A DNA stretch of 64,000 nucleotides from contig JARCRU010000030.1 of NCBI GenBank assembly GCA_029850535.1, forward strand, positions 25,658-89,657, written 5' to 3'. The notes under the pieces were generated by a model. It did not search any database and was not told where the DNA came from. It was given only the letters and a program-made list of their open reading frames with translations. The stretch comes from Actinomycetota bacterium (GTDB lineage Bacteria > Actinomycetota > Acidimicrobiia > Acidimicrobiales > RAAP-2). The translations under genes were made by a program, and so were the position numbers. Each line of letters starts with the position of its first letter. The first letter of the stretch is position 1. Shown here in pieces: positions 31,266 through 59,934 of the stretch.

Positions 31266-31490
31266 TTATTTGTAGCGGTAGGTGATGCGTCCGCGGGTCA
31301 TGTCGTAGGGCGTGATCTCAACTTGCACCTTGTCACCCGGCAGAATACGAATGCGGTGCATGCGCATCTTGCCCGAGCTGTGAGCGAGAACGGTGTAACC
31401 GTTCTCCAACTCGACGCGGAACATGGCGTTGGGAAGTGGCTCGACGACGGTACCCTCTACGGTGAACGCGTCTTCCTTTGGCTTACTCAG
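31266..31490 (-). CDS. infA: Translation initiation factor IF-1, CTG start
   Basis: 74-aa OB-fold factor that fills the ribosomal A site during initiation. The protein reads [20 protein letters not shown] and later [18 protein letters not shown], complete by comparison with 72-73-aa homologues. No ATG, GTG or TTG lies at the right place: the start codon must be CTG at 31490, with a perfect AAGGAG 7 nt upstream. The nearest upstream GTG (31556) would add 22 unlike residues and has no Shine-Dalgarno. Promoter at 31573-31600. Confidence 0.93.
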
Positions 31491-31572
31491 GTTCTTTCTC
31501 CTTGTTGCGGCACTGCGACGCGAAGGAGCACGGAACTCCTCGACGGTTGACCCCACAAGAGGTCGGCTGACT

Positions 31573-31600
31573 ATTCTACCGAATTTTTCTGAGAATGCAA
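31573..31600 (-). promoter_or_regulatory. infA / alpha-operon promoter
   Basis: Minus strand TTGCAT, 16-nt spacer, TAGAAT, 82 nt upstream of the infA CTG. It lies in an A/T-rich patch. It is needed because the island at 31.7-34.7 kb separates infA from map and the spc operon. Confidence 0.7.
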
Positions 31601-31645: not shown

Positions 31646-31670
31646 CCACGGGTCAAATTGTGACCCGTGG
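31646..31670. promoter_or_regulatory. Perfect 10-bp dyad between infA and the sensor operon
   Basis: CCACGGGTCA, AATTG, TGACCCGTGG. It sits 40 nt before the PPOX-like ATG and 46 nt from the infA -35, with no T-run on either strand, so an operator is more likely than a terminator. GGGTCA half-sites resemble but do not equal the DosR box. Confidence 0.55.
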
Positions 31671-31709
31671 CCCTAGTTGTTTTCTCGCGACGCGGACCAT
31701 GCTAGACGG

Positions 31710-32093
31710 ATGGAGGACTTACCTGCCGTGTCAGTGCTGGACCGTGACGACTGCGTCGACCGGCTATCGGCGGCACCGCTCGCACGGATACTGGTGTCGG
31801 TACGATGTCTGCCCACTGCCCTGCCGGCCAGGATTCGCGTCGTGAACAGGAATAAGATCCTCATCGCCTCCTCGGACACCTCGATCTTGCTCGCCGCCCA
31901 GCGCCACGACGTCCTCACCGTGCAAGTCGACGGCGTCGATGAGCACAATCACACCTGGTCAGTGGTGGCGTCGGGCATCGCCGAGGTCTCCTCGGACACT
32001 GGCCCGATGGACGACGTGCTCGGGGACGCCTCGAGTTACGGGGGCCAGCTGGTCTCATTCCCGATGTCGGTCGTCGTCGGCCAACGACACTGA
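31710..32093 (+). CDS. PPOX-like flavin-binding split-barrel protein
   Basis: 127 aa. A region LDRDDCVDRLSAAPLARILV followed by a beta-rich stretch with KILIASSDTSILLAAQRHDVLTVQV resembles small pyridoxamine-phosphate-oxidase-like proteins that bind FMN or F420. Similar proteins occur among hypoxia (DosR) regulon members in mycobacteria, which fits its place in front of a DevS-like kinase; this is an inference. Start: ATG 31710 (MEDLPAVSV) is likely, but GTG 31728 is possible. 28 nt separate it from the kinase. Confidence 0.65.
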   Translation: MEDLPAVSVLDRDDCVDRLSAAPLARILVSVRCLPTALPARIRVVNRNKILIASSDTSILLAAQRHDVLTVQVDGVDEHNHTWSVVASGIAEVSSDTGPMDDVLGDASSYGGQLVSFPMSVVVGQRH

Positions 32094-32121: not shown

Positions 32122-33273
32122 GTGAAGTTCCGTGAACTGCGTGATCCCGACCGACTGCACGCGCTGATCGACGCCATGTTGCTCATGGAGACCGACGCGG
32201 CGCTGGGTACGCTGCTGCAACAGATCGTCGACACCGCCAGCGAGTTGGTCGGGGCCCACTTCGGAGCTCTCGGGGTGCTGGCCCGTGACGGAGCGACCAT
32301 CTCGGAGTTGTACACCTGCGGCATCGACGAGGAGGAGAGGATGCGCATCGGCCAGCCCCCCAGCGGCCAAGGAGTGTTGGGCCAGACCATCAGGGGGGCC
32401 CAGCCCCTGCGCATCGACGACCTCGCGCACCACCCCGGCTCGTCGGGTTTCCCCGAGAACCATCCCCCCATGCTCCGTTTCCTCGGGGTGCCCGTGATCA
32501 CTCGCAACGGCCACGTCTGGGGCAACCTCTACGTCACCGAGCCACTCAGCGGCGCGCCCTTCAGTCACGACGACGAATTGCTACTCGAGACGTTCGGACG
32601 TGTGGCCGGCGCGGTCATCGACCAGTCCAACTTGCGAAGAGAGTTGCGCGAACTCACGGTGACCGAAGAACGCGAGCGAATGGCGCGCGACCTGCACGAC
32701 ACAGTCATCCAACGACTCTTCGGCGTAGGGCTGGGCCTTCAGATGGTCCTCCCTTTGATCGGTGACGACGCTCGCGCGCGCGTGGACCTGGCATTGGACG
32801 AGCTCAATGAGACCATCCACGACATCCGCACCACCATCTTCGAGATCGACCAGGACCGCGCCACTGACGATACGTTGCGTCAGCGCGCGATGGCCCTCAC
32901 GAGCGAGGTGGACAGCCGACTCGGCGTCGAGGCCCACCTCCAAATGCAGGCGGGGCTCTCACAACAAGTCAACGAGCACTGCGCGCACCACACGATTCAG
33001 GCGCTGCGCGAGATTCTTTCGAACATCGTGCGCCACTCCGAGGCCACCCGCGTCGAAGTGGAGCTCAGTGACGACGGGGATTTCCTAGTGCTCACGGTCC
33101 GCGACAACGGGGTGGGTTTCGACAGCGGGGTGGGCTTCGACAACGGTGCGGGCTTCGGTCGGGGTCTGCGAAACCTCGCGACACGGGCGCACGACCTTGG
33201 TGGCGAGTGCGTCGTTCAGTCGAGCCCCGGAAGTGGCACACTGGTGAAGTGGACCGCACTGAAGAAGGCGTGA
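32122..33273 (+). CDS. DevS/DosS-like GAF sensor histidine kinase (predicted heme sensor)
   Basis: 383 aa with one GAF domain (about 12-165), a HisKA_3 dimerisation domain with phospho-acceptor His192 in RDLHDTVIQRLFGVGLGLQ, and a HATPase domain (DNGVGFD and GRGLRNLATRA). GAF residues match DosS GAF-A closely: GFPENHPPM keeps the His aligned with heme ligand H149 (here H114), and GNLYVTE keeps the Tyr aligned with Y171 (Y137). It would sense O2, NO, CO or redox. DosS has two GAF domains; here only one. Start GTG 32122; the track start lies in the preceding gene. The ATP lid carries a triplicated G-x-GFD motif. Confidence 0.9.
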   Translation: MKFRELRDPDRLHALIDAMLLMETDAALGTLLQQIVDTASELVGAHFGALGVLARDGATISELYTCGIDEEERMRIGQPPSGQGVLGQTIRGAQPLRIDDLAHHPGSSGFPENHPPMLRFLGVPVITRNGHVWGNLYVTEPLSGAPFSHDDELLLETFGRVAGAVIDQSNLRRELRELTVTEERERMARDLHDTVIQRLFGVGLGLQMVLPLIGDDARARVDLALDELNETIHDIRTTIFEIDQDRATDDTLRQRAMALTSEVDSRLGVEAHLQMQAGLSQQVNEHCAHHTIQALREILSNIVRHSEATRVEVELSDDGDFLVLTVRDNGVGFDSGVGFDNGAGFGRGLRNLATRAHDLGGECVVQSSPGSGTLVKWTALKKA

Positions 33274-33274
33274 G

Positions 33275-33916
33275 ATGATTCGACTCCTGCTCGTGGACGA
33301 CCACGAGATCGTGCGTCGCGGGCTGCGCGAACTCCTCGAGGCGAACCCCGATCTCACCGTGACGCATCAAGCCGGCAACCTCGAATCGGCGCTCGCGCTC
33401 GACTGCAGCGATGTGGATGTCGCCGTGCTCGACGTGCGACTGCCCGACGGTAGCGGCGTCGACCTGTGTCGGAGTTTGCGCGAGACCTACCCGCACCTCA
33501 ATTGCCTGATGCTCACCTCCTTCGCCGACAACGAGGCCCTCAACGCCTCGGTGCTCGCCGGAGCGCAGGGCTACGTTTTGAAGAACGTCCGCGGCGATGA
33601 ATTGATCAATTCCATCCGACGCGTGGCCCAGGGTGAGATGCTGCTCAGCACCGAACAGATCGAGCGTGCTCGTGAGCGCCTACGACGTCAGATCACCGAA
33701 GATATGCGCCTGGAGTCCCTGAGTGTCCAAGAGCGTCGTATCCTCGAGTTGCTCTCCGAGGGACTCTCCAATCGAGAAATCGGCGAAGTCATGTTCCTCG
33801 CCGAGAAGACGGTCAAGAACTACGTGTCGAACCTGCTCGCCAAGTTGGGCTTCCAACGTCGAACCGAGGCCGCGCTCTTCGCGCAACGCCAGTTCGACCG
33901 CGACCGTCGCGACTAG
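33275..33916 (+). CDS. DevR/DosR-like NarL-family response regulator
   Basis: 213 aa. The receiver has acidic D8-D9, phospho-Asp D53 in AVLDVRLPDGSG, Thr81 in LTS and Lys103 in YVLKN. The LuxR-type HTH reads LSNREIGEVMFLAEKTVKNY, with the KTVKNYVS recognition helix shared with DosR. It partners the kinase, whose stop is 1 nt upstream. The targets are probably hypoxia or gas-stress genes; no clear DosR box was found in the window. Confidence 0.92.
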   Translation: MIRLLLVDDHEIVRRGLRELLEANPDLTVTHQAGNLESALALDCSDVDVAVLDVRLPDGSGVDLCRSLRETYPHLNCLMLTSFADNEALNASVLAGAQGYVLKNVRGDELINSIRRVAQGEMLLSTEQIERARERLRRQITEDMRLESLSVQERRILELLSEGLSNREIGEVMFLAEKTVKNYVSNLLAKLGFQRRTEAALFAQRQFDRDRRD

Positions 33917-34243: not shown

Positions 34244-34546
34244 TCACGAGTAGAACGTCATCGCCCGCCGTTCGGCACTGACACGAAACTCCTCGTAGAC
34301 CGCGCGGTCCTGCAGCATGAAGACGTTCTTACCCGACGCGTTGTGGTGCGCCAGAGCAGTGAGGAAGCGCGCGATCCGGGTACTCCAGGTCTCACGAGCG
34401 TGGACGTCGCCCACGGTCGCAGCAATCTGGGTGGTCGCCGTGGCCCGGGAGGTCATGGCGCGCGGCGCGACGGGGGAGTCAAGGGATTCTTGGACGACGA
34501 AGTCGACGTGCGTAGCGTTGTTTCGTCGGGTATCGACAATGCTCAT
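34244..34546 (-). CDS. Hypothetical 100-aa protein
   Basis: Not recognised. ATG 34546 with AAAGGAAG about 6 nt upstream gives MSIVDTRRNNATHVDFVVQE. The middle is rich in Thr, Ala and Arg; the second half (RIARFLTALAHHNASGKNVF, then DRAVYEEFRVSAERR) looks helical. No transmembrane segment and no Cys. It is convergent with the response regulator and preceded by a 170-nt A/T-rich leader, suggesting a separately regulated gene, perhaps a target of the two-component system. The track start extends 29 codons without a Shine-Dalgarno. Confidence 0.6.
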   Translation of the reverse strand: MSIVDTRRNNATHVDFVVQESLDSPVAPRAMTSRATATTQIAATVGDVHARETWSTRIARFLTALAHHNASGKNVFMLQDRAVYEEFRVSAERRAMTFYS

Positions 34547-34631
34547 GGTGGTCTTCCTTTCAAGAAGTGAGATCCAGGATCCCCCCGCTTTTCGAAAAGC
34601 GCCGCCTGAAGCCGAACAGTACTGAATCTCC

Positions 34632-34662
34632 ACTGCCGTCCGCGGGCTTCACGCACGGCAGT
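34632..34662 (-). promoter_or_regulatory. Inverted repeat in the leader of the 100-aa gene
   Basis: ACTGCCGT, 15 nt, ACGGCAGT. It lies 86-116 nt upstream of the ATG, inside the predicted untranslated leader. Could be an operator or an RNA hairpin. Confidence 0.4.
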
Positions 34663-47183: not shown

Positions 47184-47213
47184 AACCTACACCACGAGGC
47201 CCCGCGAACGCAA
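47184..47213 (-). promoter_or_regulatory. Candidate rplC promoter
   Basis: Minus strand TTGCGT, 18-nt spacer, TAGGTT. The -35 sits in the loop of the rpsJ hairpin. Hexamers are weak, but the 18-nt spacing matches the rpsL, rplM, rplJ and groES promoters here. Confidence 0.4.
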
Positions 47214-47233
47214 AACGTTCGCGGGGCCTCGTG
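47193..47233 (-). terminator. 18-bp perfect hairpin after rpsJ
   Basis: Two 18-nt perfectly complementary arms (beginning CACGAGGCCCCGCGAACG) around a 5-nt loop, 5 nt past the rpsJ stop. No T-run follows, so this may be a T-less terminator, an mRNA 3'-end protector or a processing site. Confidence 0.7.
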
Positions 47234-59895: not shown

Positions 59896-59934
59896 GTGCG
59901 AAGCCCCGACCGACGAGTGGTCGGGGCTTCGCAC
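59896..59934 (-). terminator. rplL-rpoB hairpin 1, 16-bp perfect stem
   Basis: GTGCGAAGCCCCGACC, 7 nt, then the exact complement; 12 nt past the rplL stop. No T-run, as with the rpsJ hairpin. Confidence 0.65.

Follow-up and report, generated by a model that had tools for sequence, protein, structure and literature searches.

The closest described counterparts of the locus considered here are the DevR/DosR system of Mycobacterium tuberculosis and the OsdR/OsdK system of Streptomyces coelicolor. The promoter-proximal DevR site of M. tuberculosis lies across the −35 element (PMC3029386), and the DevR box has been published in the forms GGGACTTNNGNCCCT (PMC6448022) and TTSGGGACTWWAGTCCCSAA (PMC2275270). 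The OsdR protein has a near-symmetric 16-nt consensus, AGGGCCGATCGGCCCT, with 43 predicted sites in S. coelicolor, and a predicted site is found upstream of the gene encoding OsdR itself (PMC5069765).

The window analysed here, the whole 64,000-nucleotide (64-kb) stretch from an Actinomycetota bacterium, contains a 219-bp divergent gap that separates infA (minus strand; PF01176, TIGR00008) from an operon encoding a PNPOx-like protein, a sensor histidine kinase and a response regulator (Table 1). The kinase has the domain order GAF–HisKA_3–HATPase and differs from DevS, which has two GAF domains, in that a single GAF domain is matched. This domain is closest to the heme GAF domains of DosT and DevS (alignment to 2vzw and 2y8h), and the proximal histidine and distal tyrosine of the predicted heme pocket are both present in the alignment, here as H113 and Y136. 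The recognition stretch of the regulator, EKTVKNYVS (K178, K181 and N182 here), is identical to that of DevR, so that the operon encodes a regulator with DevR's DNA-contacting helix. In both its regulator and its kinase, then, the operon resembles the M. tuberculosis system (PMC3029386, PMC2275270). The nearest relatives of the regulator among named genomes are mainly Acidimicrobiaceae metagenome-assembled genomes, several of them with peatland-type isolate names. Between the response regulator gene and map lies a 129-amino acid frame (34247–34633, minus strand) that has no Pfam match and may not be a gene.

Table 1. Features of the infA–sensor operon region, in positions of the window
Feature	Coordinates	Strand	Remarks
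infA promoter, TTGCAT-16-TAGAAT	31573–31600	−	TTGCAT 31595–31600, TAGAAT 31573–31578; predicted; conserved with and without the sensor operon
Palindrome	31646–31670		10-nt arms, 5-nt loop; lineage-specific; only the right arm overlaps the conserved box
Candidate DevR-type box, TGTGACCCGTGGCCCTA	31659–31675	+	From aligned promoters of relatives; one site per genome, E=6e-9 here; 8/9 DevR/OsdR core letters
Sensor operon −10 element, CATGCT	31698–31703	+	22 nt past the box, 6 nt before the start codon; conserved though not fixed by the pattern
PNPOx-like gene (Pyridox_ox_2)	31710–32093	+	PF12900; predicted ATG start at 31710; start-codon distance fixed in relatives; mRNA probably leaderless
Sensor histidine kinase	32125–33273 (predicted start)	+	GAF domain (one matched) resembling the heme GAF domains of DosT and DevS
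DevR-like NarL-family response regulator	33275–33916	+	Probable binder of the box; closest solved relative is DevR, 3c3w (E=1e-59)

A preliminary description of this DNA had drawn attention to a perfect palindrome in the gap and proposed it as an operator for both infA and the sensor operon. The palindrome is exactly as described: CCACGGGTCA-AATTG-TGACCCGTGG has fully complementary 10-nt arms around a 5-nt loop, has no T-run and lies in the divergent gap upstream of both predicted promoters. Such symmetry is unusual for one gap: among 5000 dinucleotide-shuffled versions of the 219-bp sequence, 14 had a perfect inverted repeat with arms of at least 10 nt and a loop of 3–12 nt, and 3 had one with a loop of 5 nt. 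It is unremarkable in a genome, however, because the 64-kb window carries seven repeats of this kind. Two of the seven, at 47193–47233 (18-nt arms, 5-nt loop) and 59896–59934 (16-nt arms, 7-nt loop), are much longer. The genome search suggested in the description, for CGGGTCA-N5-TGACCCG, gave a single occurrence in the 2.48-Mb assembly, and the lack of a second copy is among the outcomes that it had named as counting against an operator; our genome-wide statistics for this genome rest on pattern searches of this type. The informative comparison is the one across relatives, rather than the search for second copies within the same genome.

What the relatives conserve is a shifted, asymmetric element, (T/A)GTGAC-N4-G(A/G)CCCTA, which in the window covers the right arm of the palindrome and part of its loop and extends 5 nt past the right arm. 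Same-genus infA loci with a divergent PNPOx–kinase operon share an A/T-rich flank, GTGAC-N4-G(A/G)CCCTA, usually CATGCT, and then the start codon; one such locus has GCCCCTA in place of G(A/G)CCCTA, and locus L017, whose gap contains Ns, is left out of this statement. The box lies 34 nt from the PNPOx start codon, a distance that, like the box letters, is invariant across the 35 collected sites by construction, since the pattern used to collect them fixed both. The −10 element was left free by that pattern and is conserved all the same, whilst no separate −35 hexamer is conserved in the sensor promoters. With the start codon taken as +1, the 16 core bases fall at −50 to −35 (centre −42.5) and the box thus overlaps the −35 region. 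Class II activator sites are placed in this way, here on a promoter whose mRNA is probably leaderless, with transcription predicted to start at the start codon.

To follow the element in other genomes, we used a sequence model of the box plus the −10 (R1) to search 61 same-genus genomes with a cut-off of E≤1e-3. Matches were found in 35 genomes, one in each and all directly upstream of the PNPOx gene as judged by coordinates; G066, G070, G073, G077, G078 and G083 are examples of matched genomes outside the model. The PNPOx gene itself is present in 42 of the 61 genomes, and the site was found in 35 of these 42 as against none of the 19 genomes without PNPOx (Fisher P=2.2e-10, the genomes being related and hence not independent). 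Three genomes, G026, G031 and G035, have the operon somewhere other than directly next to infA; there too the site precedes the operon, and infA retains a promoter of its own. That the site stays with the operon away from infA, while the infA promoter is equally conserved where no sensor adjoins it, shows that the site belongs to the sensor operon. Inspection of the seven PNPOx-positive genomes missed by R1 revealed related boxes at the same place in six (TGGGACCAACGGCCCTA, TGGGACTTTCGGCCATA (twice), TGGGCCCTCGGACCCTA, TGAGACTATTGGCCCTA and TGAGACCAAAGCCCCTA) and Ns in the seventh, G015. Outside the genus the element gave only two weak matches, both in other families of the order; a brief look at the frames placed neither of them before a recognised PNPOx–sensor operon. 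In its own genome, R1 returns one site only, and pattern searches for a regulon gave no excess over control patterns. A separate sequence in this genome, GTGACGTTGGGCCCT (L171, G000:C29:20112-20126), is followed at a distance of 49 nt by a long frame with a possible GTG start; its geometry is close to that of the sensor promoter but may be due to chance.

How closely does the box resemble those of DevR and OsdR? The window box has eight of the nine letters of the GGGnC-N4-GnCCCT core with the right spacing (8 nt between GGG and CCC), departing from it at one letter (GTG for GGG) and being without DevR's TT after GGGAC. As matches of this quality number 33 in the window and are not rare in themselves, assignment of the box leans on where it lies, on the regulator encoded next to it and on variants of canonical form. 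The latter come from the six exceptional relatives, whose boxes have eight or nine of the nine core letters and overlap the published DevR and OsdR forms; some have GGGAC or GGGCC left halves and are canonical DevR-type boxes, such as GGGAC-N4-GGCCCTA. Around 71 other actinobacterial devR loci, canonical boxes at N4 spacing number 66 against 6–16 at other spacings, but a reversed control gives 40, so that this excess is only suggestive. With its candidate box, the locus shares with the M. tuberculosis system the 8-nt spacing and a promoter-proximal site on the −35 region, and is unlike it in that the left half is GTGAC and not GGGAC in most genomes, that the operon opens with a PNPOx gene and that pattern searches detect no regulon. 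Compared with OsdR/OsdK of S. coelicolor, the 16-nt length, the spacing and the presence of a predicted site ahead of the gene for the regulator itself are alike, whereas the box here is asymmetric and single rather than near-symmetric and one of many (PMC5069765).

Taken together, these results suggest that the functional element of the gap is offset from the palindrome and is a class II site of DevR type through which the sensor operon activates itself, a reading to which we give a probability of roughly 0.78. It draws on the placing of all 35 sites upstream of the PNPOx gene and their absence from the 19 genomes without that gene, on the constant 34-nt distance and conserved CATGCT, on the related boxes in the exceptions and on a regulator closest to DevR and a kinase closest to DosT/DevS, as well as on the precedents of the M. 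tuberculosis proximal site (PMC3029386) and the predicted OsdR self-site (PMC5069765). Conservation, geometry, operon co-occurrence and protein similarity together point to a possible mechanism, in which signal, phosphorylation, binding, activation and transcription start are all predicted. The DosT/DevS-like GAF kinase would phosphorylate the regulator encoded beside it; a dimer of the phosphorylated regulator would bind the box, centred near −42.5, where it would touch RNA polymerase and make up for the lack of a −35 element. The leaderless operon (PNPOx–kinase–regulator) would thereby be activated by its own product in a positive feedback loop. An oxygen or redox sensor system would in this way switch on its own genes via the box, and the 10-bp symmetry of the palindrome would be a side effect of sequence upstream of the box that matches by chance in this lineage.

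Alternative explanations start from the palindrome or from the box. Were the palindrome itself the operator, a dimer, either of the DevR-like protein or of a distinct repressor, would bind it symmetrically and control both infA and the sensor operon. The rarity of perfect 10-bp symmetry in shuffles of the gap speaks for this, as does the retention of 8 of 10 pairs in G070, one of the closest relatives, but neither G070 mismatch is compensated and the full palindrome is absent from all same-genus infA loci read (loci fetched via the infA protein). Across the aligned promoters the left-arm columns are nearly random: the arms pair at a mean of 4.2 of 10 positions over the 35 sites and 4.0 when the window is excluded, against 3.9 after random exchange of left arms between sites, and conservation of both arms, or compensating change, is not seen. 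In addition, the GGG and CCC blocks of the palindrome are 11 nt apart instead of the 8 of DevR and OsdR boxes, its centre falls near −92 relative to the start of infA transcription, which is predicted near 31566, and the infA promoter is independent of the sensor operon. We therefore regard a palindromic operator as very unlikely, and the perfect symmetry is best seen as incidental, probably produced when a conserved half was extended by chance in this lineage. CACGGG does recur weakly near −60 in a few sites, which leaves some room for an auxiliary half-site. It is very improbable that the left arm has evolved here into a second half-site, so that the palindrome would take up a further regulator molecule next to the conserved box and would link the oxygen or redox sensor also to infA and to the ribosomal-protein operon that follows it.

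An RNA hairpin, whether terminator or leader structure, could in principle form from the ten G+C-rich pairs and 5-nt loop. We consider this extremely improbable, as the palindrome lies upstream of both predicted starts and hence outside both transcripts, is not conserved and matches no Rfam family at threshold (a chance-level match only); an intrinsic terminator was rejected because there is no T-run and both genes point away. The box might instead be an activator site for another regulator encoded elsewhere in the genome and not for the DevR-like protein, in keeping with its asymmetry and its departure from canonical DevR sites at GTG. Since the box is found only with the sensor operon and once per genome, some exceptions have canonical GGGAC or GGGCC boxes and the operon's own regulator has DevR's recognition helix, this too appears unlikely.

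For the preliminary description, the outcome is mixed. The gap does hold a regulatory element for the sensor operon, though the palindrome is not supported as that element, and the DevR-like regulator that had been named as a binder, encoded by the adjacent operon, is the predicted and most likely ligand. A dimeric repressor finds no support in a position that is that of a class II activator, nor does control of infA. The arrangement is an ordinary regulatory site, rightly suspected but misplaced and over-extended to infA. A perfect palindrome can evidently mislead: once relatives were compared, the site came to lie several bases away and the presumed connection with infA fell away. If the DevR-type reading is correct, it extends DevR/OsdR-style self-activation to a little-studied, uncultured soil lineage related to the Acidimicrobiaceae, in which drift would have given the box an asymmetric form, GTGAC/GACCCTA, at a position, −42.5, that is nearly fixed.

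On the other side of the gap, infA is, as far as sequence can tell, read from its own separate conserved promoter with no sign of control by the palindrome or box; promoter and leader are conserved in same-genus genomes that have no sensor operon next to infA. The gene apparently starts with CTG (31488–31490, minus strand) behind a Shine-Dalgarno-like AAGGAG, and the CTG is retained in the 30 loci read from the genus as well as in 27 others read from the order. Most loci read outside the order have ATG, GTG or TTG, whilst in one (L206) infA apparently starts with ATT after GGAG. A literature search for CTG-initiated infA yielded nothing relevant. For a translation initiation factor, so weak a start codon could be a sign of self-regulation, which is known for infC. 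The infA leader (31491–31572, minus strand) belongs to no Rfam family; within the genus it is usually predicted to fold as two adjacent hairpins, whose stem sequences differ between genomes whilst their pairing is largely kept.
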